Below, one piece after another: positions 35,478 to 59,164 of a DNA stretch of 64,000 bases. Positions within the stretch are counted from its first letter, which is position 1. The number at the start of each line of letters is the position of its first letter. Made by a program: the position numbers and the translations under genes. A model generated the notes under the pieces. The model saw only the letters and a list, made by a program, of their open reading frames with translations, was not told the origin of the DNA and ran no database searches. Origin of the DNA: Bradyrhizobium sp. CB3481 (lineage in GTDB: Bacteria > Pseudomonadota > Alphaproteobacteria > Rhizobiales > Xanthobacteraceae). Location: contig NZ_CP121647.1 of the NCBI RefSeq assembly GCF_029714305.1, positions 1,818,501 to 1,882,500 of the forward strand, written 5' to 3'.

Positions 35478-37379
35478 CTACCGTTCGACAAATGCGCGAC
35501 CCATTTGCTCGGTGATCGGCTTTAGCAAATAGCTCATCATGGTCCGGCTGCCGGTCTGCATGAAGACTTCGGCCGGCATGCCTGGGACGAGTTGCAGGCC
35601 GCCGAGCCGGCGACGTTCATCATCGGGCAGCACGACCCTTACCGTGAAATAGGGGGCATTGGTCTGCTGATCACGGCTAGTATCGGCCGACACCAGGGAC
35701 ACCGTGCCGGAGAGTTGCGGTGTCACCCGCTGGTTGAAGGCCGAGAAGCGGACGAACGCCTTCTGGCCGGCACGAACCTGGTCGATATCCTGCGGCTGCA
35801 ACCTTGCTTCGACCAATAGGTCATCCGTATCGGGCACGATTTCCATTATGACGTCGCCGGGACGGATGACGCCGCCGATGGTATGCGCGGCAAGTTTGTG
35901 GATCACGCCCGATGTCGGCGCACGCATTTCGATCCGATCGAGCAGATCCCGCGCGGCGACGCCGCGCTCGACGAGTTCGGCTTCCTTGCCCTGCGTTTCG
36001 CCAAGTTCCTTGACAACTTCGGTACGAAAATCCTGATCGAGGCGCGCGATCTGAAGCTGTGTCTCGCCGACCTTTGATTTCGTCTCGGCGATCGAGGATA
36101 TCAATTGCCCGCGCTCGCCTTCAATCCGAGCGGTTTCACGCTGCAACGTCGTGAGACGCGTCAGCGGCACCAGTCGCTTGTCGTAGAGGTCCTTGACCCC
36201 AACAAGTTCGCCCGCAATCAACTCAAGCTGCTTGGCTTTGGAGTCCACTTGGGCCTCTTGTCCTGAAACCTCCTGACCGAGCTGCCCGATCTTGCTCTGC
36301 AAAACTTCCTTCTGACTCTTGCGCCCTTCGGATCGCGCCCTGAACAGCAAAGTCTCCGATGCCAGCAGGCTTCGGATGTTGTCCTCACCGACACGCGACA
36401 TCAATGCCGGAGGAAATTCCAGCTGGTTCAGTCCGTCCCGTTCGGCGGTTAATCGCGCGATCCGCGCGCGCACCTCGTCGAGCTGCTTGCTCACAATCTG
36501 AAGACCGGTCTGGGCCTGGGTGGCGTCAAGCCGCAACAGCAAATCGCCGGCGGCGACGTGCGCACCGTTGGCGACCGTGATCTCGGCGACGACCCCGCCG
36601 GTGGGATGCTGGATGGTCTTGACATTGGATTGCACAACAAGATTTCCGGGCACCACCACGGCACCTGCAAGCGGCACGAGGGCAAACCAGCCGCCGCCCA
36701 GCACGGTGGACAGGAGCAGTATTCGAAGGCCGGCCCGCAACTGATTTTCAAACGACCAGCCGGCATCCGCCATCAGGCCGGCATCGGTCGCGGCGTTCGC
36801 CGGGGTGTGCGCGTTGCCATTGAGCAGGAATGAACCCGCAGCGACCAGGTTAGCGCCCCCAGTTCGAAGCAAGCGCGCAACGACTGTTGCCGGCATTGGC
36901 TGCCCGGAAAGCTTCGATTGCGCATTCGGGAGGGCCATCGACCGATGTGCAGCTTCCGGCGCGGGGATGGCCGGCCCCGGTTTTGTCAATTCCATCGATA
37001 GCGGATGGCCCGGTGCGAGACTCGGACTCGGATATCGCGGCGGCGCGACGGGAGCCGCGTCCGTCGGCTCTCTCTTGGGCTGCACTGGCACGACCGACCT
37101 GAGCCCGACCTGTTCAAGACAGTAGTCAATAACACGTCCCACCTTGCCCTTTTTCCGGCGTTTGAGCCGGCTGGTCTTGGTACGACCGCGTCCCGGTGAA
37201 ACGTCAGGCGTTGGGCGACGGGCTCGCGATGCGTGCTGATTGTCCTCTGTCTCTCTGTCGAAGTCGCGGCTCAAGCGTTCCAATTCGAGAATCAGGGCCG
37301 CGCCTGGCGAACCATGCGCATCGCGCGCGACGCACTGCGCGGTCTCATTTGGGTGCAATGTGTTCTGCCGGGGCCGCAT
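35478..37379 (-). CDS. Type I secretion membrane-fusion protein (HlyD family), extended N-terminus
   Basis: A 633-residue HlyD/PrtE-like adaptor. The single membrane helix (LLLSTVLGGGWFALVPLAG) sits at about residue 219-240, the lipoyl half-domain (TIQHPTGGVVAEITVANGAH) follows at about 257-276, then a coiled coil (about 290-450) and a beta-barrel with VRFSAFNQRVTPQLSG. Typical members have the helix within the first 60 residues; here about 215 Pro/Arg-rich cytosolic residues precede it, with a basic patch RLKRRKKGKVGR at about 72-83. ATG at 37379 follows GAGGAAG; an overlapping TTG lies 6 bp upstream. It overlaps the ABC gene stop region and forms an operon with it. Confidence 0.9.
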   Translation of the reverse strand: MRPRQNTLHPNETAQCVARDAHGSPGAALILELERLSRDFDRETEDNQHASRARRPTPDVSPGRGRTKTSRLKRRKKGKVGRVIDYCLEQVGLRSVVPVQPKREPTDAAPVAPPRYPSPSLAPGHPLSMELTKPGPAIPAPEAAHRSMALPNAQSKLSGQPMPATVVARLLRTGGANLVAAGSFLLNGNAHTPANAATDAGLMADAGWSFENQLRAGLRILLLSTVLGGGWFALVPLAGAVVVPGNLVVQSNVKTIQHPTGGVVAEITVANGAHVAAGDLLLRLDATQAQTGLQIVSKQLDEVRARIARLTAERDGLNQLEFPPALMSRVGEDNIRSLLASETLLFRARSEGRKSQKEVLQSKIGQLGQEVSGQEAQVDSKAKQLELIAGELVGVKDLYDKRLVPLTRLTTLQRETARIEGERGQLISSIAETKSKVGETQLQIARLDQDFRTEVVKELGETQGKEAELVERGVAARDLLDRIEMRAPTSGVIHKLAAHTIGGVIRPGDVIMEIVPDTDDLLVEARLQPQDIDQVRAGQKAFVRFSAFNQRVTPQLSGTVSLVSADTSRDQQTNAPYFTVRVVLPDDERRRLGGLQLVPGMPAEVFMQTGSRTMMSYLLKPITEQMGRAFVER

Positions 37380-37381
37380 GT

Positions 37382-39202
37382 TCAAACTTCCTCTAGGGCG
37401 GCTACGCGAGGCGTCGCAGGCGCGGTCCGTGCAGCCGGCGGCTTTGCTCCAGGCGCGCCGGGCCCTCTTCCAACCCGTGCAAAGACCTCCTCACTTGGAC
37501 CAAACGCAATCGCCCGGCCCTCATAGAGCACCATCGCCATATTCAGTACGGCAAGGGCGCTAGGGCGGTGCGATATGACGATGACGATGCTGCCGCTGCT
37601 GCGCAGAGTCTCGATAGCTCGGCTCAGGGAATTCTCGCCATCGGTGTCGAGGTTCGCGTTGGGCTCATCAAGCACAATCAGAAACGGGTCGCCGAAGGCG
37701 GCTCGCGCCAGACCGATCCGCTGGCGCTGACCGGCCGAGAGGGTCATACCGCCCTGGCCGATGCGCGTCGCATATCCCTGCGGCAGGCGCAGAATGAGAT
37801 CGTGCACGCCGGCAATCCGCGCAGCCTTTAATATCGCTTCCGACGTCGCCCGCTCATCGAACCGGCAGATATTTTCAGCCACCGTACCCTCGAGCAGCGC
37901 CACATCCTGAGGCAAGTAGCCGATATGCCGGCCCAGATCTTCGTTGCGCCATTGATCGATAGCCGCTCCGTCGAGCCGCACGACACCTTCTCTGGCCGGC
38001 CAGATTCCGACGAGCGCCCTCGACAGTGAGGTCTTGCCGGAGGCACTGGCGCCGAGCAGCGCGAGCCCCATACCCGCTTTAAGCGAGAATGAAACGCCTG
38101 ATACGATGGGCTTATCCATACCCGGAGCCGCGACCGCAAGATGTTCTACCGAGAGCTCTCGGCAGGGGCGCGGCAACGCAACTGGCGGCACAGGCGGCGG
38201 CGCCGTCGCCTCGCAGATGTCGCGCAGGCGGGCGAGCCCCTGGCGCGCGGTGACAAGCTGCTTCCAATTGCCGAGCACGACTTCAACCGGCGCCAGCGCG
38301 CGGCCCATCATGATCGATGAGGCGATCATGATGCCGCCCGAGGCCTGGTCGACCACGACGAGATAGGCGCCAATCCCCAGCATGCCGGACTGCAGTACGT
38401 AGCGCAGCAGCTTCGCTACCGATCCGAGATTGGCATATATGTCGTTGGCTCGGATGTTTTCGCGCAGATAGCGCTCATTGGCCTGCGACCAACGCACCGT
38501 GAAGCGGTCAATCATACCGAACGCGCGGATTACTTCGGCATTGCGCTGGGTCGTGTCCGCCAGTACCTGCCGGCGTGCACTTGAGTCCATCGCGGCCCTG
38601 GCCGCGCCGCGCGACAGCCGCTCTGTGAGCAAAGTCATCGCGATGATTGCAATAGTTCCAAGTAGCGCGGCAGCACCGATCGCTGGATGAAACAGAAACA
38701 GCGTGACCAGAAAAATCGGAATCCAGGGCATGTCCAGAAACGCCGTCGGTCCCATTCCCGACATGAAGGTGCGCACCTGGTCAAGATCGCGCAGCGGCTG
38801 CTGGAGCAGCATCGGGTTCGCGCCACGAAGCGGCAGCGTAGCGAGCGCATTATGGATCGGTTCCTGCATGCCGACATCGAACATGGTTGCTACCCGGCAC
38901 AGCATCCGGGCGCGCAACGCCTCGAAATATGCTTGTATCAAGTAAGCGAGCAGCACCATCAATGAGAGGCCGAGCAGGGTCGCGATGTTGCGGCTCGGGA
39001 TCACACGGTCATAGACCTGCAACATATAAAGAGAGCCGGACAGCATCAGGATGTTCACGACTCCGCTGAACCCGGCGACGCCGATCATACGTCGCGCGCT
39101 TTCGCGCAACCCAACAGCTACCGGGTTGTCGCCGGCCATCGCGGACAGTGGATTCGGTAAACCGAAGGACGGCATTCGCACGCGACTTTGAGCAACACTC
39201 AT
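37382..39202 (-). CDS. Type I secretion ABC transporter (PrtD-like)
   Basis: A 606-residue permease-ATPase. The membrane domain spans about 45-320, with hydrophobic helices near 50, 75, 160 and 280. The ATPase has Walker A GASASGKTS (384-392), Q-loop PQD (about 431), signature LSAGQRQRIGLARA (488-501) and Walker B FLIVLDEP (507-514). No N-terminal C39 peptidase is present, so cargo would carry C-terminal secretion signals. It lies upstream of the HlyD gene in the same operon and just downstream of the beta-helix gene. No outer-membrane TolC gene is in the window. Confidence 0.93.
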   Translation of the reverse strand: MSVAQSRVRMPSFGLPNPLSAMAGDNPVAVGLRESARRMIGVAGFSGVVNILMLSGSLYMLQVYDRVIPSRNIATLLGLSLMVLLAYLIQAYFEALRARMLCRVATMFDVGMQEPIHNALATLPLRGANPMLLQQPLRDLDQVRTFMSGMGPTAFLDMPWIPIFLVTLFLFHPAIGAAALLGTIAIIAMTLLTERLSRGAARAAMDSSARRQVLADTTQRNAEVIRAFGMIDRFTVRWSQANERYLRENIRANDIYANLGSVAKLLRYVLQSGMLGIGAYLVVVDQASGGIMIASSIMMGRALAPVEVVLGNWKQLVTARQGLARLRDICEATAPPPVPPVALPRPCRELSVEHLAVAAPGMDKPIVSGVSFSLKAGMGLALLGASASGKTSLSRALVGIWPAREGVVRLDGAAIDQWRNEDLGRHIGYLPQDVALLEGTVAENICRFDERATSEAILKAARIAGVHDLILRLPQGYATRIGQGGMTLSAGQRQRIGLARAAFGDPFLIVLDEPNANLDTDGENSLSRAIETLRSSGSIVIVISHRPSALAVLNMAMVLYEGRAIAFGPSEEVFARVGRGPGAPGAKPPAARTAPATPRVAALEEV

Positions 39203-39484: not shown

Positions 39485-41074
39485 CTAGTGGTGCCAGAAG
39501 TTCGCGTGCTGTTGCCAATCCTGGCCGCCCGTCGGGCTCGTCATCGAACCGGCAGACAATTGCTGCCAGTGGTGGCCCCATCCGTCTGATAACGAGTCCG
39601 CTGAGACGATCGTCGATGCAACCTCGGCCATCGAATGAGTGGACACTTGTTGCCACCAAGCGCGGCCGCCTCCTACCGCGTCCGGCGAGACGGATGTTGA
39701 TGTATCGTCCGCTGAAAGATTATCAAATGCCTGCTGCAGCCAATGGTGACCACCTCGTACAAGTTCCTGCGAGACAGTCGCGGATGTATCCTGCTGCCAC
39801 CATTGGTGGCCACCTCGCGCCGGATGCGGCGCCGTTGCTACGGGTGTATCTTCCGTGGTCGTGGAAGTACCATCGGTGGTCGATGTACCTCCCGTGGCCG
39901 TGGACGTGCTGCCGGTAGTCGTGGAGGTATCGTCCGTGGGCGTGGAAGTGCCGCCCGTGGTCGATGTACCTTCCATGCCTGTGGATGTCCCGCCAGCCGT
40001 CGTGGAAGTACCGTCCGTGGTCGAACCTGTGGCCGTCGACGTATTGTCGGTCGTTGTGGAGGTACCATCAGTGGCCATGGAGGTACCATCGGTTGAAGGA
40101 GCGCTGCCGGTCGTAGTGCCCGGATCCGAACCCGAGGCGGTCGGCGTCTCCTCCACCGGTGGTTGCTCGGTGACGGGGGGCGGCACAGTCGTCCCGGTGT
40201 TGCCTTCGTGATTCTCGATCCAATTCGCTTTGGCCTGCGCCCAGTAATCGCGGGCCGCCTGTCCCTGGAGAACTGTCCACCCCGCCGGCGGCATCGGGTA
40301 GTCGCTGGGGAGAGGCTCGTCGGACAAATTGAGGAGATAGTTGTTCGAGGACTCGATGGTGTGGTCCCACGCATCGAACATGCTGCGGTAGCTGTGATGG
40401 TGGACGTCCTCGATCGCGAAGACATTGTTCTTGAACACCAGGTTCGGCGTGACCTCGCCATCGGTCGCAGAGTCGGTCTTGATCATCGCCGAGTGCGTCA
40501 TCTCGCCCTCGTAGAGGTACGACTTCATGCGCATGAGCACGCCATCGAGCGTCACGGTCTGGCCGCTGCCGTCAACCGGGCTCGCCGAGGACGGATCGAT
40601 GCTGATGCCGCCGAAGACGCCGTCGAACAGACTGTCGCGGATGGTACCGGTCTGCAGCCTGTCGTTCTCGACAGCATCATCGCGGGCGTTCTCCACCCAG
40701 ACGTCCTCGATGAGGAAATTTGGGCTGTTCCAGGAGACGCGGACCGCGTCCCAGGTGTTGGTGATGTGCCAGTCACGGATGACGACGTTCGGCGTGTCCT
40801 CTGTTCTGACGGCGGCCGAGTTGCCGTCACTGTACACGGTGCGCCAGTCGCTCGTCTGGTCGATCTGCCCGTTGATCGTACCGCCATCGAGGACGGCGCC
40901 GGGCGAGCTGTATACTTGGAAGGGGTAGTCGTTGCTCCCGCTTCCGGAGTTCGACTGGATCCACGATGCTGTCTCGGCATCGATGACTGTCCCGGACGCG
41001 AGACCGGATACCTTGTATGGCTGAGTGCCATAGCTGCCGGCCAGGGTAATCGTCGTCATGTACTGTTTCTCCAT
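39485..41074 (-). CDS. Beta-helix protein with Ser/Thr/Gly linker and Trp-Gln-Gln repeats
   Basis: A 529-residue protein. Residues about 55-250 look like a right-handed parallel beta-helix (VVIRDWHITNTWDAVRVS, FLIEDVWVENARDDA, LVFKNNVFAIEDV), as in pectate-lyase-like and polysaccharide-binding proteins. Residues about 300-415 are a low-complexity Ser/Thr/Gly linker of TST/GGTST units. The C-terminus repeats a Gly/His-rich unit ending in WQQ (near 421, 441, 469, 498 and 516). No Sec signal peptide is seen, and the adjacent type I genes make it a likely cargo. The first ATG is used; ATG at 41059 is possible. Confidence 0.8.
   Translation of the reverse strand: MEKQYMTTITLAGSYGTQPYKVSGLASGTVIDAETASWIQSNSGSGSNDYPFQVYSSPGAVLDGGTINGQIDQTSDWRTVYSDGNSAAVRTEDTPNVVIRDWHITNTWDAVRVSWNSPNFLIEDVWVENARDDAVENDRLQTGTIRDSLFDGVFGGISIDPSSASPVDGSGQTVTLDGVLMRMKSYLYEGEMTHSAMIKTDSATDGEVTPNLVFKNNVFAIEDVHHHSYRSMFDAWDHTIESSNNYLLNLSDEPLPSDYPMPPAGWTVLQGQAARDYWAQAKANWIENHEGNTGTTVPPPVTEQPPVEETPTASGSDPGTTTGSAPSTDGTSMATDGTSTTTDNTSTATGSTTDGTSTTAGGTSTGMEGTSTTGGTSTPTDDTSTTTGSTSTATGGTSTTDGTSTTTEDTPVATAPHPARGGHQWWQQDTSATVSQELVRGGHHWLQQAFDNLSADDTSTSVSPDAVGGGRAWWQQVSTHSMAEVASTIVSADSLSDGWGHHWQQLSAGSMTSPTGGQDWQQHANFWHH
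39488..39817 (-). repeat. Trp-Gln-Gln repeat region
   Basis: Encodes about five units of the form Gly-Gly/Trp-x-x-Trp-x-Gln-Gln (GGHQWWQQ, GGHHWLQQ, GGRAWWQQ, GWGHHWQQ, GGQDWQQ). Spacings are 20-29 residues. I do not know a named repeat of this form. Confidence 0.65.
39845..40147 (-). repeat. Ser/Thr/Gly tandem-repeat linker
   Basis: Encodes the TST/GGTST-type low-complexity segment (about residues 310-410 of the beta-helix protein). DNA copies vary, with GTGGAAGTA/GTACC-type units in the plus-strand sense. Such tracts are prone to expansion. Confidence 0.7.
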
Positions 41075-41682: not shown

Positions 41683-41943
41683 ATGACGACTGAAAATCCA
41701 AAGGGCGCCGAGAGCGTCTCCAAACCGATCGCCTCGGAAGATCAAGCGCGCCGCGACTTTCTCAAGAAGGCGGGCCGCTTCGCGGTCGTGACACCCCCGG
41801 CGATAACGCTTCTCCTTGGCACGAGCCTGAATTCGCGAGCGATAGCCGGCTCGGCCGGCTCGGGCGGCAAGGGCGGTTCGCGTCCGGGCTGGGGTTTCGG
41901 AGATTCAAATCACACCCATATCGGCCCGCCAGGCAAGAGGTAG
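41683..41943 (+). CDS. Tat-signal mini-protein, candidate modified-peptide precursor
   Basis: An 86-residue protein. RRDFLKK (residues 23-29) is a textbook twin-arginine motif, followed by the hydrophobic VVTPPAITLLLG and a possible cleavage after SRAIA (about residue 55). The remaining 31-residue tail is Gly-rich and ends with a Gly-Trp-Gly-Phe, then Asn-His-Thr-His and Gly-Pro-Pro-Gly sequence. GGACGGAG precedes the ATG. A PqqD-like/kinase fusion gene and a nucleotidyltransferase gene follow on the same strand, so this looks like the substrate of that pair. Its function is unknown. Confidence 0.75.
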   Translation: MTTENPKGAESVSKPIASEDQARRDFLKKAGRFAVVTPPAITLLLGTSLNSRAIAGSAGSGGKGGSRPGWGFGDSNHTHIGPPGKR

Positions 41944-42129
41944 CGGTACTCGGGATGTCCGGCAGAACTCGTGTGTGATCGGCGGCCTGCCTGGCTGATG
42001 GGGGCCGCCGGCCAGTTGTCAAGCTTCCCATGTTTAGCGCGGTGACTTGCCCCGGCTATCGGACGAGTGCCGTCCGAGCCTGGGTGACGATGAACATAAG
42101 CCTGGTCAGGCGTCAGAAGGCATGTCACC

Positions 42130-43290
42130 GTGAACGCTCGAAACGCGCGGTCGATTGATCAAGCAGCGGTGCGAAGCCCTGGTCTTCATGCTGCGGCAGG
42201 ATTCGTGATGCGAGGCCAGCTTGTGCGCATCCGAAACCAAAACATCCTATTTAGTCCGTCGCGGCAGGCGCTTTTCGCACTCAACGATATGGGCGGCGAT
42301 ATCTGGCGTTCTCTTGAAGACGGATTGTTGCCCGAAGCCATCTCATCCGAAATCGCGAGCAGGGGCGTCGATCGGCAGCAGGCGGTCGAGCATGTCGGCG
42401 CTGCGGTCAGGCAGTGGGAACGCCAGGGCCTGATCGACTTTCCCTCGAATTGGCTCTCTACATCGTCGGACGATCAGGTGAGCCAGGTCGTCGCGGTTGC
42501 GGGCTGCTGTGTCCAAATCGTCTATCCGATAGCGTACGCATTCCCAGCGGCGACGGTGTTTGGGCACCTTGAGGTCCATGAGGCCGTTGCCAACGTTGTG
42601 CTCAAATTGGTTGACTGCGGCGAGCGTCTCCACCTGTTCCGAGATCAGCAATGGATTCAATCATGCCGGCCCGACGAACTTGCCGTCGTGCTGAAGGGGC
42701 AACTCCTTACCGAAGTTCTTCAGCGTGCTACCTATGAACTTGCCCTCCATGCGGCCGCGCTCACGCGAGACGACCGCATCCTGCTCCTTTGCGGCAGCCC
42801 AGGTGCGGGTAAGACCACGCTAGCCTTGGGACTCCTGCAATCCGGGTTCGGCTTCGCGGGAGATGACGTGACGCTCCTTGATTCGACTGGATGTGGCGTG
42901 GGCATTCCTTTTGCTCCTGCCGTGAAAGCGGGAGCATTGCCCATCCTGGCAAAATATCTGCCGGACCTTGATCGCGCTGCAGTTTGGCGCCGCCCCGACC
43001 GCAGGCGCGTCCGCTTTCCTGTGCCTAAGGAACTCGCTTCATCCTCTCCCCGCAAGGTGGGCTGGGTCGTCTTGCTGCGCCGGCGGGCCAACTCAAGTGC
43101 CACGTTGACGCCGGTCGATGCGGTCGACGCCCTGCGCGGCCTGCTCAATGGTTCATTTGCCCCCTGCGGAGAATTGAGCTGCACTGCGTTTGACGCTCTG
43201 ACCAAGATTATCGAATCGGCAAACATCTACTGCCTGACCTATTCGCATCTGGAGGATGCGATGGCGCTGATGCAGAAGGCCTGCCGATGA
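42130..43290 (+). CDS. PqqD-like / HprK-like kinase fusion protein
   Basis: A 386-residue two-domain protein. Residues about 30-102 resemble a PqqD-type peptide chaperone (VRIRNQNILFSPSRQALFAL, IWRSLEDG, then two helices and LIDF). Residues about 200-300 resemble the P-loop domain of HPr kinase: LHAAAL with His207, the nucleotide loop GSPGAGKTT at 222-230 and FAGDDVTLLD with Asp245/246. HprK-like kinases in peptide-modifying clusters phosphorylate Ser on precursors. GTG at 42130 is preceded by AGAAGG. It overlaps the nucleotidyltransferase start by 4 bases, indicating coupling. Confidence 0.8.
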   Translation: MNARNARSIDQAAVRSPGLHAAAGFVMRGQLVRIRNQNILFSPSRQALFALNDMGGDIWRSLEDGLLPEAISSEIASRGVDRQQAVEHVGAAVRQWERQGLIDFPSNWLSTSSDDQVSQVVAVAGCCVQIVYPIAYAFPAATVFGHLEVHEAVANVVLKLVDCGERLHLFRDQQWIQSCRPDELAVVLKGQLLTEVLQRATYELALHAAALTRDDRILLLCGSPGAGKTTLALGLLQSGFGFAGDDVTLLDSTGCGVGIPFAPAVKAGALPILAKYLPDLDRAAVWRRPDRRRVRFPVPKELASSSPRKVGWVVLLRRRANSSATLTPVDAVDALRGLLNGSFAPCGELSCTAFDALTKIIESANIYCLTYSHLEDAMALMQKACR

Positions 43291-44288
43291 TGCAGTCGGG
43301 TGCCGCGCTTGAGGTGTTGATCGCCGGACTTCGTGGACACGCGCTGCGCACGGCCGATTGGCGGCCGGTCATCGCCCTCGCAAATCGGACTTTGCTTACT
43401 CCGGCCTTGTTCTCAGCCCTCGTGCACAGCGGCGAGATCAATCGGCTGCCCGACGATGTACGCGAGTACTTGGGCTTTATTCACGACCGCAACGGGGAAC
43501 GCAATGCGCGCCTGCGTGCGCAACTCGCTGAAGCCATCACTGCCCTGAACCGTCGGAGGATCGCTCCGCTCCTGCTCAAGGGGGCCGTTCCCCTGTTTTT
43601 TTCTAACGGCAATCAGATTACGCCTCGAATAACTAGCGACCTCGATCTGAGCGTGGACCCGGCGGAGGAGGAAAGCGCGCTGGAGTGCCTTGGCGGACTT
43701 GGTTATCTGCCATTGACGGACGGACGAGGCCTGGTGCGGCCGCTGGATGTCGGAGTCTTGGAGCTCCGGCGGACTCAAGAAAGCGAGCTGCGGCCATCGA
43801 CGCCCGTCGAACTGGGCGGTCTCTTGGCGAAAATTCCGTCGCCGCAGTCTCGCGCCCTGCACTGGATCGTTCATGATCTCTTCAAAGAGGGCGACTATTG
43901 GCGCGGCAGAATTGACCTCAGGCATCTGCACGATCTCGCGCAACTGGCGGAAAGCGCCAGTTTGGACTGGACGTTGCTGCGAGCAGCAATGCCGGACCGA
44001 AGAAGTCGCAACGCGCTTGATACTCAACTCCTTGCCTTGCGCGAACTCTTTGGGGTGACAATTCCCTTTGAGCCCACGCGACGTCCGATGGTTCGCTACC
44101 AGCACTGGAGACGCATTTTCACCGCGAGACATCCCATAATAGGTGCGCCGGTGCGACTGGTCGGCAATCTGGCATGGGGCGCGTGGCGGCTGTCACAGGC
44201 CGGCGATTTGGTGCAACGTGGTCCCGTTGACCTTGGGCGTCGCATGGTCCGCACACTGCTGGAAAGTGATCACCGGGCGAAGATCTAG
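43287..44288 (+). CDS. Nucleotidyltransferase-family protein
   Basis: A 333-residue protein of the NTP-transferase 5 type. LLLKGAVPLF (about 95-104) and ITSDLDLSVDP (about 115-125) give the metal-binding Asp pair of the family. Relatives occur beside HprK-like kinases in lasso-peptide and related clusters. It probably transfers a nucleotide to a peptide, sugar or phosphate, possibly using the phosphate added by its neighbour (inference). The start overlaps the kinase stop (ATGA). Confidence 0.82.
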   Translation: MMQSGAALEVLIAGLRGHALRTADWRPVIALANRTLLTPALFSALVHSGEINRLPDDVREYLGFIHDRNGERNARLRAQLAEAITALNRRRIAPLLLKGAVPLFFSNGNQITPRITSDLDLSVDPAEEESALECLGGLGYLPLTDGRGLVRPLDVGVLELRRTQESELRPSTPVELGGLLAKIPSPQSRALHWIVHDLFKEGDYWRGRIDLRHLHDLAQLAESASLDWTLLRAAMPDRRSRNALDTQLLALRELFGVTIPFEPTRRPMVRYQHWRRIFTARHPIIGAPVRLVGNLAWGAWRLSQAGDLVQRGPVDLGRRMVRTLLESDHRAKI

Positions 44289-44886: not shown

Positions 44887-45612
44887 TTAGTCGCGTGCGG
44901 ACTTGATTTCATCGGCGATAGTGGAGTGCGTTCCGGGTGAAGCTTCGAATGACCCCTCACCATCTTCCTGGGAGGCGTCCAGCTTGTGAACTTGTGAGAT
45001 GGCGAGGGTCGCGAGCACCGTCCGATTGCTTACATCGAGCTTCTGGAAGATACGATGAAGATGAACCTTTATTGTGCCATCGGTTAGATTCAGTCGGCGA
45101 GCAATTTCCTTGTTCGACAATCCCTCAGACACTAGACGCATAATCTGACGCTCCCGGTCAGTGAGGGCATGCGTTGCTTTGGCCTTGTTCGGGGTTTCCT
45201 GAGCTGATTCCAACTCATATGAAGTGGGTGGCGATGATATGTGATGGTTCGCAACTTGCCGCAGAATCTGCAGCAAAAGGTTGGGCTCTGTATCCTTGGA
45301 GATAACACTGTGGGCACCTCCCGAAGCCAGGATCGCTATATCGCTCTCATAGATATCGCCTGTGAAAAGAACGACGCGCGTGCGAAGTGTCTCCGCCCTG
45401 ATCACGGCGAGAATTTTTCTCCCGCCGATATTGGGCAATGTCGGATCGACAAGGGCGATCTCCGGCGCGAATAGCCTGATCGCTTCGATGCAGCTCGGTC
45501 CATCACCGCAGCAGGCGACTAACCTGAAATCACGTTCTGTCCCGAGTACGTTAGCCAGGCCTTGCCGAACTATGGGATGGCGATCCGCAATAACCACACG
45601 GATACAATGCAC
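44887..45612 (-). CDS. NarL/FixJ-type response regulator
   Basis: A 241-residue two-domain regulator. The receiver (about 1-120) has VVIADRHPIVRQGL, the phospho-acceptor Asp in ALVDPTLP (about residue 56) and the conserved Lys at VISKDTEP (about 106). The LuxR HTH (LTDRERQIMRLVSEGLSNKEIA) lies near 150-205. No histidine kinase is adjacent, so it is an orphan. It is divergent from the 45995 regulator across 382 bp of AT-richer DNA. Confidence 0.9.
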   Translation of the reverse strand: MHCIRVVIADRHPIVRQGLANVLGTERDFRLVACCGDGPSCIEAIRLFAPEIALVDPTLPNIGGRKILAVIRAETLRTRVVLFTGDIYESDIAILASGGAHSVISKDTEPNLLLQILRQVANHHISSPPTSYELESAQETPNKAKATHALTDRERQIMRLVSEGLSNKEIARRLNLTDGTIKVHLHRIFQKLDVSNRTVLATLAISQVHKLDASQEDGEGSFEASPGTHSTIADEIKSARD

Positions 45613-45994: not shown

Positions 45995-46786
45995 ATGAAG
46001 CGGCGACGCGATTTTTCAATCATACTTGTCGGAGAACGAGGTCTACTTAGAGAGGGAATCGAGCGAATCTTACGCTCAGCCAATTTCCGCATCAGGGCTT
46101 CGGTAGCGCCGGGCGATGATCTGATCTCTAGTCAGGTTGGAGCCGACCAGTTGCTTTTTGTGATGGTTCAAGCCGGCGATGACTTTGATGTCACCATCGA
46201 GCAAATCGAATTTCTAAGAAATCACCATCCCGGTGCGCGCGTCGCTATTGTCGATACCCACTATCGGCTGGACGATGTGGTGGCAGCTTTCCGCGCAGGG
46301 GCTAATGGCTATTTTGCTGACGTCACGAGTTGCGAGGTCTTCGCCAAGTCGGTGGAATTGGTGATGCTGGGTGAACTCGTCTTTCCTCCGGCATTCCTGT
46401 CGTTTCCTCTTGTTGACGATCATCACGTCAGTAACCGTGCACCGACTGTCGGCAGCAGTCGAACGGTGCTCGCAACCGGCACCATCGACCCACGGCTCTC
46501 TCCGCGTGAGCGGTCTATTTTGCGCTGTCTGATTGAGGGCGATTCGAACAAATGCATCGCCCGAAAGATCGAAATTGCTGAAGCTACCGTAAAGGTCCAT
46601 ATCAAGGCGATTCTTCGCAAAATCCAGGTTCAGAACCGGACACAGGCCGCGATCTGGGGCGTCAACCATCCGTTCCTGGCAGAGGCGCCCGAGACTGCCT
46701 TGGTGCCATCGAATGCAGTCGCCAACGGCGAACTTCCTGTTCCTTGCAATGGCGGAGAACGGCAGTTCAGAGTTGAAGGCAAGTAG
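45995..46786 (+). CDS. LuxR/NarL-type regulator with degenerate receiver
   Basis: A 263-residue protein. The N-terminal part (IILVGERGLLREGIERIL) is receiver-like, but the acidic pocket is replaced (GER in place of the usual Asp pair) and the phospho-acceptor position reads VMVQAGDD, with Gln where Asp is expected. The C-terminal HTH is intact: LSPRERSILRCLIEGDSNKCIARKIEIAEATVKVH. It is probably constitutive or controlled by another input. It is a paralogue of the protein at 47064. Confidence 0.85.
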   Translation: MKRRRDFSIILVGERGLLREGIERILRSANFRIRASVAPGDDLISSQVGADQLLFVMVQAGDDFDVTIEQIEFLRNHHPGARVAIVDTHYRLDDVVAAFRAGANGYFADVTSCEVFAKSVELVMLGELVFPPAFLSFPLVDDHHVSNRAPTVGSSRTVLATGTIDPRLSPRERSILRCLIEGDSNKCIARKIEIAEATVKVHIKAILRKIQVQNRTQAAIWGVNHPFLAEAPETALVPSNAVANGELPVPCNGGERQFRVEGK

Positions 46787-47063: not shown

Positions 47064-47915
47064 TTAGTTCGCCAGCCGGCCAAGCGAGGTGTGTTTTTCA
47101 GCGGGTGCGGCGGCTTCCGCAACTTGATCGTGTGATATACCGTTCTTTGCCGAAATAAGCGGAGCTGAACTTATCGCCCAAATAGCGGCCTGCGTGCGAT
47201 TGTGGACCCGGATCTTTCGAAGGATCGATTTGACATGGACCTTCGCAGTCGCCTCGGAAATGGCCAGCTTACGCGCGATACTTTTGTTGGAATCACCCTG
47301 GATAAGGCAACGCAGGATCGATTGTTGCCGCGTTGACAGTGGCGTTAGGCTGGCCATGTCGTGCGGCACAAGTTCATTCGTTCCCTCCTTGATCCCGACC
47401 ATCTCGGCAGCATCTCCATGCTTATCTTCAGAAGCAGTCATGGGGTGAGCTGCGTCGCCGCAATGGCTGGCCGCTTGGCCGCGGTTTTGCTCTTGCTGGT
47501 AACAGATGAAACTCAGTATTTCAGGAGGCAAAAACGTCACGCCGAGCATGACCAACTCTAGGGTCTTGATAAACGTATCGCTCGCTACGGACTTGGCCAA
47601 ATAAGCGTTGGCGCCCAGCCGAAATGCCGAGATCATTGTACTTAGCTGGCGCTGATGAGCCAGCAATGCAACGCGTCCTGCCGGACATCGCTGCTTAAAC
47701 GACTTCAGTTGTGCGAATGCCACATCGACGTCATCGCCGACATCGATGACGAGCAGGATCGGCGGCTGTTGAGGGAACGAGTTCGGGATCAGCTCGTCAA
47801 CGCTGCATCCCGATGCGAAAATACGAAAGCCAGCCGAACTCAAAATCCGAGCGAGGCCTTCCCTTAGCAGCGCATTTTGGCCGACAAGAAGGGTATCCGT
47901 AGTTGCACGGGTCAT
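47064..47915 (-). CDS. LuxR/NarL-type regulator, paralogue of the 45995 protein
   Basis: A 283-residue paralogue: [31 protein letters not shown] (here the acceptor Asp is kept) and the [38 protein letters not shown] align with the 45995 product. It begins with ATG at 47915 after GAGG; an upstream TTG at 47951 gives a longer frame. The linker between receiver and HTH is longer than in its paralogue. The two genes converge. Confidence 0.85.
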
Positions 47916-48351
47916 GGTGGCCTCGCTGATCTGGGGCGGCCTATTGGCCAACCCCGTGGCTGTTGCGCCCCCTTGATTTCAATCAGCGAAACGCCACCCG
48001 CGTTTCGATTTAACCGTGCCGCCCCATGTCAAGTTGGTGATGGTGGCCTGTCAGGCGCCGCCATGCGCCATCGAAGAAGGTTAAATGAAAATTTAGCACA
48101 ATCAAACAATCAAAGTGATTACCCCTTTATGCAGGGGAGCCGTGTCGTCGCTACGCCTAGCGGACTATTCAATGATTGGCGCGATATCGACGCGCCAATC
48201 GGGTAGTTCCCGCGCAATTTTTTACCATCGCAGCAATGGGAAACGGCCATTCAATTGGCCGTCTCGTTGCGCGGGCACCGTTCGGAGGAGGCGCCCATTA
48301 TTGCGGCTGGCGATGCGCATGGCTCCTCATCGCGTGTCGGCCTCTCGGCCG
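47916..48351. other. Interval with perfect inverted repeats
   Basis: No gene. GATTGGCGCG (48174-48183) and CGCGCCAATC (48191-48200) are perfect 10-base arms with a 7-nt centre, and ACGGCCA-N6-TGGCCGT lies at 48243-48262. Neither has a T-run; they may be operators or rho-dependent stem structures downstream of the secreted-protein gene. Confidence 0.5.
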
Positions 48352-50628
48352 CTATACGAACAGCAACGCGCTCTGAAGGTCGATCTCGATCATGCGACCA
48401 TCGCTGACGTGGGAATTTCCGTAGTCGGCGACATAGAGATTGAGCTTGCCGGGATCGTCGTTCGGGTCGCTGCTTGGCGCCAGTTCGAGGTCCTTGACCT
48501 TGGCTGACGTGTCGGTGTTTCGGAACCCCTCGAGCACGTCAAGCTTTTGTAGGATGTTGCCGCTGCGGTCGACGACCCAGATGTCCGGGCTGAAGCCGCC
48601 GCCGACAAAGAAGACGTTGTGAGCGGCGTCGTATGCCAGCGCCTCGGGATCCTTGATTTCTGCGGGCAGCGTGATGGTCGAGAAGACCTGAGTACCGGTG
48701 TTGTTGATCTCGACGATCGAGCGGCCTCCAACACTCCCGTTCGCGATGAACAGGTGGCCGTTGCTCGGATTGACAGCCACGTCCTCCGGATCATTGCAGC
48801 CAAGGGGCTTCAGATCGAATTGTCCCTGCCTGACGGTGGGATTGGCCGGATCAACCCAGTATAGTTTGAATGCGTCGTCATCGGAGATGTACAGGCGCTG
48901 CGTGCTGGAGTCGAAGGCCAGGCCGGTCGGCTCATCCGTGAAATTCAACAGGCTAAACGACTTGACGAGAGTGCCGTCGGTTTGCAGCTTCCACAGATTT
49001 GTCGCGCGGGAGAATGGGGATTCTTCAACTTCGGAATCGCAGACGAACAGTCCCATTCCGGGCACGTAGGCGATCCCAGACGGGTCGGTGCTACCGAGCG
49101 CCGCCATGTTGGTGCTCGCGACGACTGTCGGTGTTCCGCTACTGTCGTCATTGGTGATGGTGCCGAGGCCCTGGCCGTCGGTGATGGTGCCCCCGTTGGT
49201 GGGGTGGGTGAGGTTGAGGAAGAACGTCTCGTTAGGTTCGACCGCGGTGTCGCCGTTGACCGTCACCGAGACGGTCCCCGTCGCCTGTCCGGCAGCGAAG
49301 TTCAAGGTCCCTCCCGCAGCCAAGTAATCAGAGCCAGCGGTCGCCGTGCCGTTGGCGGTGGCGAAGTCAACGGCGAATGCTGCGCTGCCGGTGTGGCTCA
49401 CAGTGAAAGTCGCCGTCTTAGTCCCGCTGTTGCCCTCGGTGATCGTTGCGTCGCTGATCGAGATATTGCCGACGACAGCCGGGACGTCATCATTGGTGAT
49501 GGTGCCGAGGCCCTGGCCATCGACGATGGTGCCGCCGTTGGTGGCGTTGGCCAGATTGAGCAAGAACGTTTCGTTGGGTTCGATGACGGTGTCGCCATTG
49601 ATTGTCACCGAGACCGTCCGACTGGCCTGTCCCGCCGCGAAGTTCAACGTGCCCCCGGCTGCCAGGTAGTCGGAACCAGCCGTCGCCGAGCCGTCGGCAG
49701 TGGCGAAGTCGACGGCAAAGGCCGCGGTCCCGGTGCGGCTTACCGTGAAGGTTGCCGTCCTGGTCCCGCTGTTGCCTTCTGCAATCATGACATCGCTGAT
49801 CGAGATATCGCCAACGTCGGGGGTGGCGGTAGCTCCGGAGATCGCGAAACTACTGGCGCTAACGGCAGCGCCCGTCTGCAATGTCGCCAGCGCTATGCCG
49901 GCGCTGGCACCGGATCCGTCGGGATCCCACATCACTGAGCGGGTAGTGCCATTGTAGAGGAATTGGCCATGGCCAGCGGCCGTGCCTTGGTTCCCGGTCA
50001 CAGTGGCAAACCAAGCTGGATCGAGGACCAAGTCACCGGAGCCATTGTCGATGAGGCCGCTGCCCCCGCTCAGTCCGTAGTCGCTGGCAGTGATGCCGAA
50101 CTTGTCCTCGGCCGCGAAATCCGTGATGGTGACGGTGTTGGCTGCATCGGCCGGGCCGAACTTGAACGTATCACCTCCCAAGCCGCCGGTGAGTGTATCC
50201 TTGCCGCCACCCCCGCTGATGATGTTGGCGTTCGAGTTGCCGACGATCGTGTTGACTTGGGCGTTGCCAGTGGCGCTGATGGCGACGGCGGACTCCAGTA
50301 GCACCAACCTCTCGAGGAATGGACTTAGGGTGTAGCTCACGGTGCTGTAGACCCTATCAGTGCCGCCGTCGTCCACGCCGGAACTAGTCGTTTCGCTGAC
50401 GATGTCGTTCACATCGTCGACGTAGTAGTCGTCGCTGCCGGTCCCGCCGAACATGGTGTCCGCGCCGGCATCGCCGTGCATGGCGTCGTTACCGGCCCCG
50501 CCAAATAGCGTATCGTCGCCGGCACCCCCGTTAAGGTGATCACGCCCGCCCAGACCCGAGATGGTATCGGATTCGGCTGTGCCAGTGAGATCGGGGTCGT
50601 CGAGTTCAGTGCCGATAATGTTTGCCAT
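48352..50628 (-). CDS. RTX / Calx-beta / beta-propeller secreted-type protein
   Basis: A 758-residue protein. RTX calcium-binding nonapeptides (LNGGAGDDTLFGGAGND and onward) lie at about residues 25-70 and 130-150. Two Calx-beta domains, about 80 percent identical by eye, follow at about 265-375 and 378-487. The C-terminus (about 500-758) reads as a beta-propeller (LYISDDDAFKLYWVDPANPT, HLFIANGS, VFFVGGGFSPDIWVVD). No Sec signal peptide; RTX repeats and the hydrophobic end SALLFV suggest type I secretion. I chose the ATG at 50628, after GGAG. A paralogue is at 59217. Confidence 0.85.
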   Translation of the reverse strand: MANIIGTELDDPDLTGTAESDTISGLGGRDHLNGGAGDDTLFGGAGNDAMHGDAGADTMFGGTGSDDYYVDDVNDIVSETTSSGVDDGGTDRVYSTVSYTLSPFLERLVLLESAVAISATGNAQVNTIVGNSNANIISGGGGKDTLTGGLGGDTFKFGPADAANTVTITDFAAEDKFGITASDYGLSGGSGLIDNGSGDLVLDPAWFATVTGNQGTAAGHGQFLYNGTTRSVMWDPDGSGASAGIALATLQTGAAVSASSFAISGATATPDVGDISISDVMIAEGNSGTRTATFTVSRTGTAAFAVDFATADGSATAGSDYLAAGGTLNFAAGQASRTVSVTINGDTVIEPNETFLLNLANATNGGTIVDGQGLGTITNDDVPAVVGNISISDATITEGNSGTKTATFTVSHTGSAAFAVDFATANGTATAGSDYLAAGGTLNFAAGQATGTVSVTVNGDTAVEPNETFFLNLTHPTNGGTITDGQGLGTITNDDSSGTPTVVASTNMAALGSTDPSGIAYVPGMGLFVCDSEVEESPFSRATNLWKLQTDGTLVKSFSLLNFTDEPTGLAFDSSTQRLYISDDDAFKLYWVDPANPTVRQGQFDLKPLGCNDPEDVAVNPSNGHLFIANGSVGGRSIVEINNTGTQVFSTITLPAEIKDPEALAYDAAHNVFFVGGGFSPDIWVVDRSGNILQKLDVLEGFRNTDTSAKVKDLELAPSSDPNDDPGKLNLYVADYGNSHVSDGRMIEIDLQSALLFV

Positions 50629-51109
50629 GGTACTGGCTCCGGGGCGCAATTGGGGTTTTGCTTGGATTTTGCTGCGACACCCGCAGACGAACTATCAGGA
50701 GGAATGACAGGGGTCGCTGCTGATTCAACCTATACGATTGACGCCGCTGCGGGTAACGCCGCTGTTGGGCTACCTCATATTTTCCGTTTGATATTGAAAT
50801 CGGCGCCCTTGTTGGATGCTCTCTGACGTGGCGTAACGCGCCATCGAGTCATTCCTGCTCGCTGAGAGCAGTGTCTGACGGTGCGCGGTGGCGGCGAGCA
50901 TTTGAAGGAACCGACTGCATTCACGCGTACCGACGGATTAACTCGGTGTGGCGTAGTGTCTTAGCCGAAAATCGCTTTATTCTTCTCGCGCAACGCGGGC
51001 CTGAAGGATCGTCAATCGGGCGGCATTTCCCCAGACATTGCCCCCGCCACTGAGCAGCACGACTGAATGGCCAACCGATCAAAATGAACCTCATGAATGG
51101 GGTAGTCGC
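50629..51109. other. Intergenic region upstream of UDP-glucose dehydrogenase
   Basis: A 481-bp interval between divergent genes. No reading frame in it is convincing. It must hold both promoters, but I cannot identify their boxes with confidence. Confidence 0.4.
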
Positions 51110-57598: not shown

Positions 57599-59164
57599 TC
57601 ACAAAACAGACCAGACGGCTCGCATTGTGGTCCGCAGGGTTTCATCCAACGGCCGGCTCGTATCGATCTTGATCGCGGTAGTTTGGGAAGCCTCGGTCCG
57701 GCTTTCTAGTTCCCAACGTCGCCGTACAGCCGCGGCATCGGGGCCACCCTGCTTCACGCGGCGGGCGTCCCTTTCGATTGTCGTCTCGATCGGAGCCTCC
57801 AGGCAAAGCAGGAGGTCCGGCTTCGGCAAGCCCTTGTAGAGAGCGCCTTCCCGATTCATCAACCAACGCTTCAGCGCAGAGTTGCAGTTTGCCAACGCAA
57901 CTTCATCAAAGCAGCAGCTATCGATGGCTCCCACGCTTTCCGAGGGATACCGGTCTGCGATGACGACGGAGCCGCTGCTCGCAGCCCGCAGAGCGCGGCT
58001 AAGTAGCTTGCGGCGATCGTAGGCAAGGAGGGTCATTCGCAGAACGTATAGCAGCGAATACTGCTTCTCGCGGCGACGTTCAGGTTTCTGGTATTCTCCA
58101 GCGCGTTCCTTTGAGAACAGATGGCGCGCCGCCGGAACGAGAAGGCGAGGTAACAGCGTAAGCACCGTCGCGGGCGGCTTGCCGGCGTGAATCGGCAGTA
58201 CGTTGAGATGCTCGCCTAGGCGAGTAGACAGCGCGTGCGCGATAGTGGACTTGCCGGTTGCTTTCGGTCCGACGAGTGCAATGATCATTCCGCCCGTCTG
58301 CGGCACAAGGTCGCCACGCCGCCTTAATCGTTTAACAAGCAACGAGAGCACTCGCCAGAGCCGGGAAATAGCTCCGCGCATCATGCTCAGCCTGCGCAAT
58401 TCCCGCAGCCGCCGGGCGACGCGCCAGCCAAGGACGACGCGTCGAAACAAAGCGTGCTCGGCCTCGATGGCGTCCAACAGCTGTCGAAACAAAGGCGGAT
58501 CGATGCTCGGGAACCAAGCCGCGCAAAGCGCCTCAGCGCGCTCTGTATTCGCTGCCTCGCGCAGCCAGTCCAACTCCTTCGAAACAGTTCGGTAGTGGCG
58601 ATTTGCCATCAAGATCTCGATTGGGCTTGTGTGCTTGAGTGCGACGCGAAGCACGAAAAGCACCAGCTCCGCTTCGGGTGTTGGGACCCTCACGCCATGC
58701 AGGTAACGGGTTTGCTCCAGGAGAAGCCTTTCGATTGGCAGCCGGTAATTCTTGACCAGGCTATCTCCGCTCACGATCTGGAAATAAGCGTGCACGTGCA
58801 CAACGTCGGCGCTTGCCTGGTCGAGTCCCAACGCGTGGAAGACGCCTGGGTGCCCGATGCCGGATCGCGATTGCGTCAGCTTGAAGCCATGTTCGAGCAA
58901 GACGGCGTGGAATAGCCGGGCATCACGTTGGTCGATGAGGAGATCAATGTCTTCCGCAGCCGCAAGGGTCTCTTCTAGGCGGATATTGCTTTTCCAGTGG
59001 CAGTGGCGGATTCCCTTCTGTTCAAGCGAGTTGAAGAGCCTCCGGACGGCCGCTTTGCTCGATATTTCTGATCCAGCTTCGTCCGATTTTACCGATACGG
59101 CTTCTCTTCCCCAGTGCGAGGCGTCCAAACTTTCGACCTTTGCAGATACCGTCTCCTGACGCAT
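57599..59164 (-). CDS. Nucleotidyltransferase-like / P-loop kinase fusion protein
   Basis: A 521-residue fusion. Residues about 36-200 resemble an MNT/nucleotidyltransferase domain with AEDIDLLIDQRD (about 70-81). Residues about 290-521 form a P-loop kinase: GPKATGKST at 299-307 and DRYPSES near 398, as in thymidylate kinase. Basic helices (RRLRELRRL) link the parts. The combination suggests activation or phosphorylation of a sugar or polymer component; I do not know its reaction. AGGA precedes the ATG. It stands alone, upstream of the nucleotidyltransferase operon. Confidence 0.8.
   Translation of the reverse strand: MRQETVSAKVESLDASHWGREAVSVKSDEAGSEISSKAAVRRLFNSLEQKGIRHCHWKSNIRLEETLAAAEDIDLLIDQRDARLFHAVLLEHGFKLTQSRSGIGHPGVFHALGLDQASADVVHVHAYFQIVSGDSLVKNYRLPIERLLLEQTRYLHGVRVPTPEAELVLFVLRVALKHTSPIEILMANRHYRTVSKELDWLREAANTERAEALCAAWFPSIDPPLFRQLLDAIEAEHALFRRVVLGWRVARRLRELRRLSMMRGAISRLWRVLSLLVKRLRRRGDLVPQTGGMIIALVGPKATGKSTIAHALSTRLGEHLNVLPIHAGKPPATVLTLLPRLLVPAARHLFSKERAGEYQKPERRREKQYSLLYVLRMTLLAYDRRKLLSRALRAASSGSVVIADRYPSESVGAIDSCCFDEVALANCNSALKRWLMNREGALYKGLPKPDLLLCLEAPIETTIERDARRVKQGGPDAAAVRRRWELESRTEASQTTAIKIDTSRPLDETLRTTMRAVWSVL

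Follow-up and report, generated by a model that had tools for sequence, protein, structure and literature searches.

The stretch under study, positions 41683..44288 of a window of 64,000 nucleotides (the whole stretch of DNA that was analysed) from the genome of Bradyrhizobium sp. CB3481 (8.03 Mb, single contig), holds three consecutive genes on the + strand. They encode a mini-protein of 86 residues with a twin-arginine translocation (Tat) type leader and a variable tail (41683..41943), a 386-residue fusion of a PqqD-type recognition element of ribosomally synthesised and post-translationally modified peptides (RiPPs; the element is hereafter RRE) with an HprK-like kinase (42130..43290), and a nucleotidyltransferase (NTase) of 333 residues from family PF14907 (NTP_transf_5; 43287..44288). 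The last two open reading frames overlap by 4 bp, read as ATGA in the sequence. The start of the kinase gene is uncertain, either GTG at 42130 or ATG at 42208; relatives such as the 386-residue Mesorhizobium protein P0148 cover the whole length of the product counted from 42130. A sequence-only reading of the stretch had described the same three genes and the overlap, and both are borne out by open reading frames, profiles and the sequence itself.

The mini-protein reads RRDFLKKAGRFAVVTPPAITLLLGTSLNSRAIA up to the predicted cleavage site and GSAG... behind it. Its leader (residues 1-55, 41683..41847, +) displays the sequence features of a Tat signal, namely an RRxFLK motif (within the twin-arginine motif RRDFLKK), a hydrophobic stretch (best 15-residue Kyte-Doolittle mean 1.67) and an AxA site, and spans 33 residues from RR23-24 to A55. 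Behind AIA follow 31 residues, in agreement with the sequence-only reading; this predicted mature peptide (residues 56-86, 41848..41940, +) is GSAGSGGKGGSRPGWGFGDSNHTHIGPPGKR. Of 7,985 candidates scored with a profile made from 17 examples, 3,044 are relatives at E<=1e-3. The best 120 of these carry no Pfam domains, and the names shown among them are "hypothetical" or "Uncharacterized protein". The same genome contains another copy (L003, 7879-8082, - strand), which matches from residue 21 with 82% DNA and 94% protein identity, and over 66 codons the two copies differ by 28 synonymous and 4 non-synonymous codons (dN 0.051, dS 1.05, NG86; 13 and 2, respectively, in the last 30 codons), a pattern suggesting that the mini-protein gene is or was under selection. 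The second copy is probably a fragment because an in-frame TAG lies just upstream of its RR codons and no start is evident, and we do not claim it as a functional substrate. The 3,044 relatives, the codon pattern and the conserved gene association described below place the mini-protein beyond a chance reading frame.

Across the family the leaders are near-invariant and the tails variable. The leader measures 33 residues from RR to the last AxA residue in each of the 180 unique sequences conforming to the cleavage pattern (nine listed rows lie off the pattern and two lack the RR anchor). Thirty diverse rows give the leader consensus DRRxFLxxCGRFAxVTPPAxTLLLSTSLxSxAIA, with R23, R24, F26, L27, P38, P39, L45 and A53 unchanged. 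By a rough pattern, the tails of 198 unique sequences fall into a short GNNGxGNGG type (138), a long SFFDN type (17), a type with a W/L-rich C-terminus (16), the GWGDxNHxHxGPPG type present in the window (5), a Thr-rich type (3) and others (19); these shares are biased because 111 of the sequences come solely from the best 120 proteins of the search, the other 87 being from loci. The tail motif of the window is common to three Mesorhizobium loci (L142, L143, L144) and the Ensifer protein P0001. The sequence-only reading had stressed the Gly/His/Pro-rich tail, an emphasis that does not hold for the family. With the window's tail type in 5/198, the tail is rejected as the conserved, modified part, and it is the leader and one Ser that are conserved instead.

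This Ser, Ser57 (41851..41853, +), occupies mature position 2 and is the proposed phospho-acceptor. In the 198 unique anchored sequences the position holds Ser 196 times, Thr once and Ala once, in a count made without requiring Ser or Thr in the pattern; another count, likewise unconditioned, gave 188 Ser and 1 Thr among 189 (five NTase rows set aside). The Ala belongs to L161, in which the Ser has slipped to position 1 of the count through a one-residue deletion. Elsewhere among the first 22 mature positions, Ser and Thr together make up at most 39%. Of 282 pool rows, 18 (nine distinct) missed the anchor, including L143, the Mesorhizobium copy with disturbed RR spacing, and distant Tat peptides of G476 and G691.

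Hydroxyl residues are conserved in the leader, too: Thr37, Thr42, Thr47, Ser48 and Ser51 are invariant in 17 rows and nearly so by position in the larger set. Together with the constant leader length, this would fit an export control in which the RRE is a specialised Tat chaperone and Ser/Thr of the signal (TPP, STSLxS) are phosphorylated by the kinase, timing export and leaving the tail unmodified. We regard such a control as improbable, given that the seven distant members without STSLxS (L102, L103, L104, L156, L157, L158, L161) keep Ser at mature position 2 in five cases and Thr in one, with the shifted Ser in L161, and that LppK and PadeK, in the accessible parts of the published accounts, phosphorylate a core Ser and not the leader.

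Further peptides may be recorded alongside. In P0001 (Ensifer sp. Root278) the leader is duplicated in tandem, with the tail PGWGFGDKNHTHNGPPG after the second copy. The kinase-near mini-proteins of L102, L103 and L104 (genomes G210, G335 and G257) have Thr-rich repeat tails of mucin-like look. At some loci of weaker kinases (L162, L165, L166, L168, L170, L171) other small Tat-like reading frames adjoin the kinase, e.g., LRRRLLKTGAAAVPVIISLQSGTAWA, which suggests that the pairing of Tat peptide and kinase may extend beyond the leader family of the mini-protein.

The RRE domain of the fusion protein (residues 39-102, 42244..42435, +) matches PF05402 with E 3.5e-7 and 30.9 bits against a cut-off of 23.4. 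It also matches by profile TbiB1 (5v1u, E 4.7e-5), 9x90 and TfuB1 (6jx3), all of them RREs of lasso peptide systems, and 5v1u, 5v1v and 6jx3 are, by their structure titles, complexes with leader peptides. The AlphaFold2 model of the fusion has a mean pLDDT (predicted local distance difference test) of 88.7; in Foldseek the predicted RRE fold matches 5v1u_B (TM 0.80 on the target, root-mean-square deviation 1.8), and the modelled C-terminal domain matches phosphoenolpyruvate carboxykinase and HprK/P. Residues 197-382 match TIGR04352 (HprK_rel_A) with E 1.7e-21 and 76.6 bits, below its cut-off of 200, while TIGR00679 (HPr kinase/phosphatase) reaches 17.2 bits against a cut-off of 240. The kinase domain is homologous to the HprK-related kinases A of TIGR04352; membership in that family or in HPr kinase/phosphatase is rejected, the scores being far under the curated cut-offs. 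In the active-site segment (42748..42867, +), which comprises His207, the P-loop 222-229 and Asp245-Asp246, the residues H207, G222, P224, G225, G227, K228 and D245 are invariant and D246 nearly so across 73 rows, and His207, the P-loop and Asp245-246 align with the HprK chain 3tqf.

The NTase matches PF14907 with E 8.6e-23 and 81.6 bits against a cut-off of 31.2. Both Asp residues of its DLD motif (residues 118-120), D118 and D120, are invariant in 65 rows, and its model has a mean pLDDT of 87.0. Sequence comparison with the PDB returned nothing at E<=10 and fold comparison nothing at E<=1e-3, the nearest folds being 5uvd, ANT(2'')-Ia and LnuA, with FKRP lower. In the polysaccharide region of the window, a protein of 521 residues (57599-59164, -) matches NTP_transf_5 below the threshold (E 5e-4), and its second half contains what looks by eye like a P-loop motif; the protein possibly combines an NTase and a kinase in one chain.

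The association of the mini-protein with the kinase is real. Among 51 distinct kinase loci with E<1e-40 the NTase adjoins the kinase in 50 and a mini-protein lies in the examined stretch in 31; the corresponding numbers are 55 and 34 for the 64 distinct loci with E<=1e-20. In 19 of these 34, among which are 12 genomes of sister genera, the mini-protein gene stands directly upstream of the kinase and in divergent orientation. The strong loci without a nearby mini-protein number 20, of which 19 are of the same genus, in genomes with mini-proteins elsewhere, and the remaining one is L159 (G710). A scan of named genomes gave at least 13 loci, and among the matches listed both partners accompany the kinase at all eight alphaproteobacterial loci (three Mesorhizobium, Ensifer, Sinorhizobium, a Hyphomicrobiales, Novosphingobium and Qipengyuania). 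The five beta- or gammaproteobacterial or unclassified loci among those matches (L150-L154) have no significant mini-protein or NTase match, which sets them apart from the present system, as the sub-cut-off score does for HprK-related kinase A; they were themselves not scored against TIGR04352. Up to seven mini-protein matches occur per genome, in scattered positions.

Co-occurrence extends this picture to whole genomes. Mini-protein, kinase and both were found in 27, 28 and 25 of 117 genomes of the genus, in 25, 32 and 22 of 296 genomes of the family, and in 11, 22 and 8 of 385 genomes of the class (Fisher p 5e-20, 1e-22 and 4e-9, respectively, values that kinship inflates). The samples overlap (G000, G021 and others recur), their thresholds differ, and in many genomes part of the first-look candidates was scored. 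The 8 in the class include G476, which has peptides of a distant kind on other contigs than its weak kinase, and the 27 in the genus include G035 (E 5e-4, no RRxFL at the aligned place), which we do not accept as a mini-protein; the other genome of the genus with a mini-protein alone, G050, is a real case. Kinases alone occur in G026, G053 and G102 within the genus, all weak (E 1e-13 to 1e-15), and within the family in G040, G226 and eight weak cases. Mini-proteins alone occur within the family in G351 (77% complete) and as weak matches in G360 and G373, and within the class in G511, G519 and G691. Class kinases with E<1e-30 are accompanied by a mini-protein in six of seven genomes. In G040, which has no mini-protein match, remnants of kinase and NTase lie side by side (G040:C22:259172-260181; L131, L214), with an internal stop in each, and a co-loss of the whole system is possible.

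Polysaccharide genes lie near the kinase in 11 of 12 kinase-centred stretches of 20 kb, with dTDP-rhamnose genes in six and Wzz/Wzc plus a sugar transferase in five. In the window itself, sugar-nucleotide and sugar-transferase genes occupy 51-57 kb. Upstream of the cassette, at a distance of 2.5 kb, an ABC transporter and an HlyD-type partner (35478-39202, -) have the look of type I secretion, and the pair has cluster relatives in L073, L076, L077 and L080. Near this pair a beta-helix protein with Thr/Ser repeats is encoded (39485-41074, -), and two RTX/Calx-beta/NHL proteins follow at 48352-50649 (-) and 59217-61250 (-).

After the cassette come LuxR/NarL-type regulators at 44887-45612 (-), 45995-46786 (+) and 47064-47951 (-). 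The first of them, a response regulator by PF00196 and PF00072, is a conserved companion and not a proven part of the system; the regulator protein cluster is found near or between mini-protein genes in L065, L071, L075, L077, L080 and L081. Many genomes of the same genus have a short and a long mini-protein gene separated by about 2.8 kb, away from the kinase, and the stretches with such pairs (L077, L080, L081 and L075; e.g., 7750-11064 of L080) contain H-NS-like and response-regulator genes.

In a tree of 43 kinases the window kinase falls into a clade of 14 rows (100/100) that includes Mesorhizobium, Sinorhizobium, Ensifer, Pseudaminobacter, Pararhizobium and one Bradyrhizobium strain. A separate clade of 18 rows (99/98) unites its own genus and family, and two further rows of its own family are placed elsewhere in the tree on long branches. 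The tails of the Mesorhizobium and Ensifer relatives have the GWGDxNHxHxGPPG or PGWGFGD form, matching the placement in the tree. From these sequence comparisons the cassette may have been transferred between families.

Pairs of kinase and NTase are known tailoring enzymes of lasso peptides, as the sequence-only reading had stated, and occur in clusters of the paeninodin, pseudomycoidin and Bsf types, to judge from accessible parts of the reports. In paeninodin an HprK homologue phosphorylates a core Ser (accessible parts of PMC8498205, PMC7533575 and PMC10368454), and the pseudomycoidin NTase PsmN reportedly attaches one or two hexoses to the phosphate of a phosphorylated lasso peptide (accessible part of PMC8498205). 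These clusters have an RRE, an HprK homologue and an NTase in common with the present cassette, so that a lasso or other macrocyclic peptide system, with cyclase and protease elsewhere in the genome, has to be considered. It differs in that the acceptor Ser lies at the C-terminal end of the core there and at the predicted N-terminal end here. The absence of a B or C cyclase or protease, likewise asserted in the sequence-only reading, holds among the 21 window proteins scanned with Pfam (the main reading frames within about 6 kb on either side included); a search of the whole genome for the lasso B2 protease family PF13471 returned nothing at E<=0.001, with 2 of 14 control genomes matched, and the cyclase was not searched genome-wide. 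The ring of a lasso peptide needs an acidic residue at mature position 7, 8 or 9. In the mini-protein family such residues are rare at these positions (8, 7 and 3 of 198, respectively). We consider a lasso system very improbable here and reject it in view of the missing PF13471 protease.

A closer parallel is provided by the linear polyphosphorylated peptides (LPPs) of Bacillota (Nat Commun 2026, PMC13381572), for which the accessible part of the paper describes an RRE, an HprK-like kinase, an uncharacterised NTP transferase and linear precursors, with no need of a cyclase. Their precursors have 35-200 residues with a conserved N-terminus and a variable C-terminus, and one to three of them occur per cluster; the kinase LppK puts several phosphates on core Ser3, the loci lie among capsule genes, and the authors regard LPPs and paeninodins as restricted to Bacillota (same part of PMC13381572). 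The present system shares an HprK-like kinase in the cluster, an uncharacterised NTP transferase (PF14907 here), a short precursor with the same division into conserved and variable ends, a Ser near the N-terminus of the core (position 2 as predicted from the sequence, Ser3 in LPPs) and a capsule or polysaccharide neighbourhood. By contrast, the RRE is discrete in LPPs and fused to the kinase here, the leader YxxPxVLxHQxIxFETxxS of LPPs is replaced by a Tat-type leader, and the SpI-like leader peptidase of the LPP cluster has no counterpart among the 21 scanned window proteins. LPPs have an MsbA-like transporter, and here the ABC/HlyD-type pair lies upstream on the other strand. The substrates are scattered here, and the hosts are Alphaproteobacteria. 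Because the RRE is not discrete, the leader motif is lacking and no LPP-type peptidase was found among the scanned proteins, we interpret the system as LPP-like and not as a member of the LPPs. It is best read as an LPP-like alphaproteobacterial family whose leaders are of the Tat type, whose RRE and kinase are fused, and whose substrates are multi-copy and scattered.

An export signal that doubles as a RiPP leader is known from the bufferins, which are modified by MNIO enzymes; the accessible text of PMC12452194 states that Sec-type signal leaders are rare in RiPPs and that Sec export has been demonstrated experimentally for bufferins alone. As the leader is itself the export signal there, modification must precede export. 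Bufferins differ from the present peptides in using Sec and not Tat, and in their enzymes; the words Tat and twin-arginine are absent from the main text of PMC12452194 as far as accessible. In the literature searched we found no account of the Tat-leader family of the mini-protein, and strings of its leader sequence matched no paper. The accessible main texts of RRE-Finder (PMC7470986) and PMC12710340 contain no whole-word kinase, HPr, nucleotidyltransferase or Tat, and the passages of PMC11340318 no HPr, nucleotidyltransferase or PqqD.

The genes thus described form a real, conserved and uncharacterised system. The gene association, the relationship of the fusion protein to RRE and HprK with intact active-site residues, the conserved leader and Ser, and TatC, which is encoded in the genome, are computed results; from them we infer leader binding, the modification with its site and order, the donor of the NTase, Tat export and a surface role as follows. 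The RRE domain would grip the conserved leader of the mini-protein in the cytoplasm, and the HprK-like kinase would phosphorylate, perhaps polyphosphorylate, Ser57. To that phosphate the NTase may then attach a sugar, a nucleotide or a sugar-phosphate. A Tat leader would let the peptide be modified inside and exported afterwards; as the leader carries the twin-arginine signal, the modified peptide would leave by Tat, and the general signal peptidase would cleave it free at AIA. A single enzyme pair would act on several scattered substrates, the product of which probably belongs to the cell surface or the exopolysaccharide. On these results and the analogies drawn above, we consider it rather probable that the cassette makes a linear, phosphorylated, Tat-exported peptide. 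The sequence-only reading had proposed a non-lasso system with a phosphorylated or nucleotidylated peptide. Co-occurrence, adjacency, the B1-like RRE (in sequence and predicted fold) and the near-invariant Ser support a non-lasso peptide-modifying system in which kinase and NTase act on an exported peptide, and the phosphorylation or nucleotidylation itself keeps the status of a prediction from sequence.

However, we also have to consider several observations that weigh against this interpretation. Three-gene co-occurrence, which the sequence-only reading had named as a check, is seen in most genomes, and exceptions exist on either side. Mini-proteins occur without a convincing kinase in G050 and G511, where a laxer search gave best kinase matches of E 4e-5 and 7e-6, respectively, and no NTase, in G351 (incomplete, as stated above; best kinase E 0.004, no NTase), in G691 (neither a convincing kinase nor an NTase) and in G519 (weak matches alone, 4.5e-10 and 0.003). 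Conversely, G053 and G102 have a kinase-NTase pair, and G226 five kinase and six NTase matches, with no mini-protein match. Class kinases weaker than E 1e-30 are accompanied by a mini-protein in 2 of 15 genomes. The profile also retrieved distant Tat peptides from G476 and G691 in which the Ser at mature position 2 is missing; in the sequences that keep it, demands of the signal peptidase or of Tat could be the reason. The comparison with LPPs is likewise imperfect in that the leader of the mini-protein has no YxxP motif, and in that deletion of LppN changed nothing detectable in the heterologous host (accessible part of PMC13381572).

The arrangement within the genus adds to these points: of the 27 strong same-genus loci, 19 have no mini-protein close to the kinase, and because of this distance a shared surface regulon is possible, in which the mini-proteins would be small proteins of the surface or matrix, exported by Tat, and the kinase-NTase pair would have another target in polysaccharide synthesis, both contributing to the same surface trait. 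The position of kinase and NTase in polysaccharide loci (Wzz/Wzc, sugar transferase, dTDP-rhamnose genes), the frequent location of same-genus mini-proteins near response-regulator, H-NS-like and Crp-like genes, and the genomes that hold one side without the other are all consistent with it. We nevertheless judge a mere regulon unlikely, as one would expect an RRE domain to come with a peptide partner, the mini-protein and kinase genes are directly adjacent and divergent in the 12 genomes of sister genera, and the conservation of the leader exceeds the RR motif, the hydrophobic stretch and the AxA site.

Returning to the modified, Tat-exported peptide, a wider reading can be offered as a tentative suggestion, held with less confidence than the narrower one. 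The system might represent a widespread, unnamed RiPP-like class of Alphaproteobacteria, in which the Tat signal doubles as the leader read by the RRE-kinase fusion, one kinase-NTase pair modifies dispersed substrates of differing tails at a single conserved Ser before Tat export, and the N-terminus, phosphorylated or perhaps phosphoglycosylated, either links the tails to surface polysaccharide or primes it.

For this large family of Tat-type peptides without annotation (3,044 clustered relatives at E<=1e-3), the genes point to a probable modifying enzyme and to one predicted site at which it would act. If the proposed modification is true, phosphorylated linear RiPPs would extend beyond Bacillota and Tat would be an export route for such peptides. 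It would also open an approach to the question of why polysaccharide loci contain HprK-NTase pairs.

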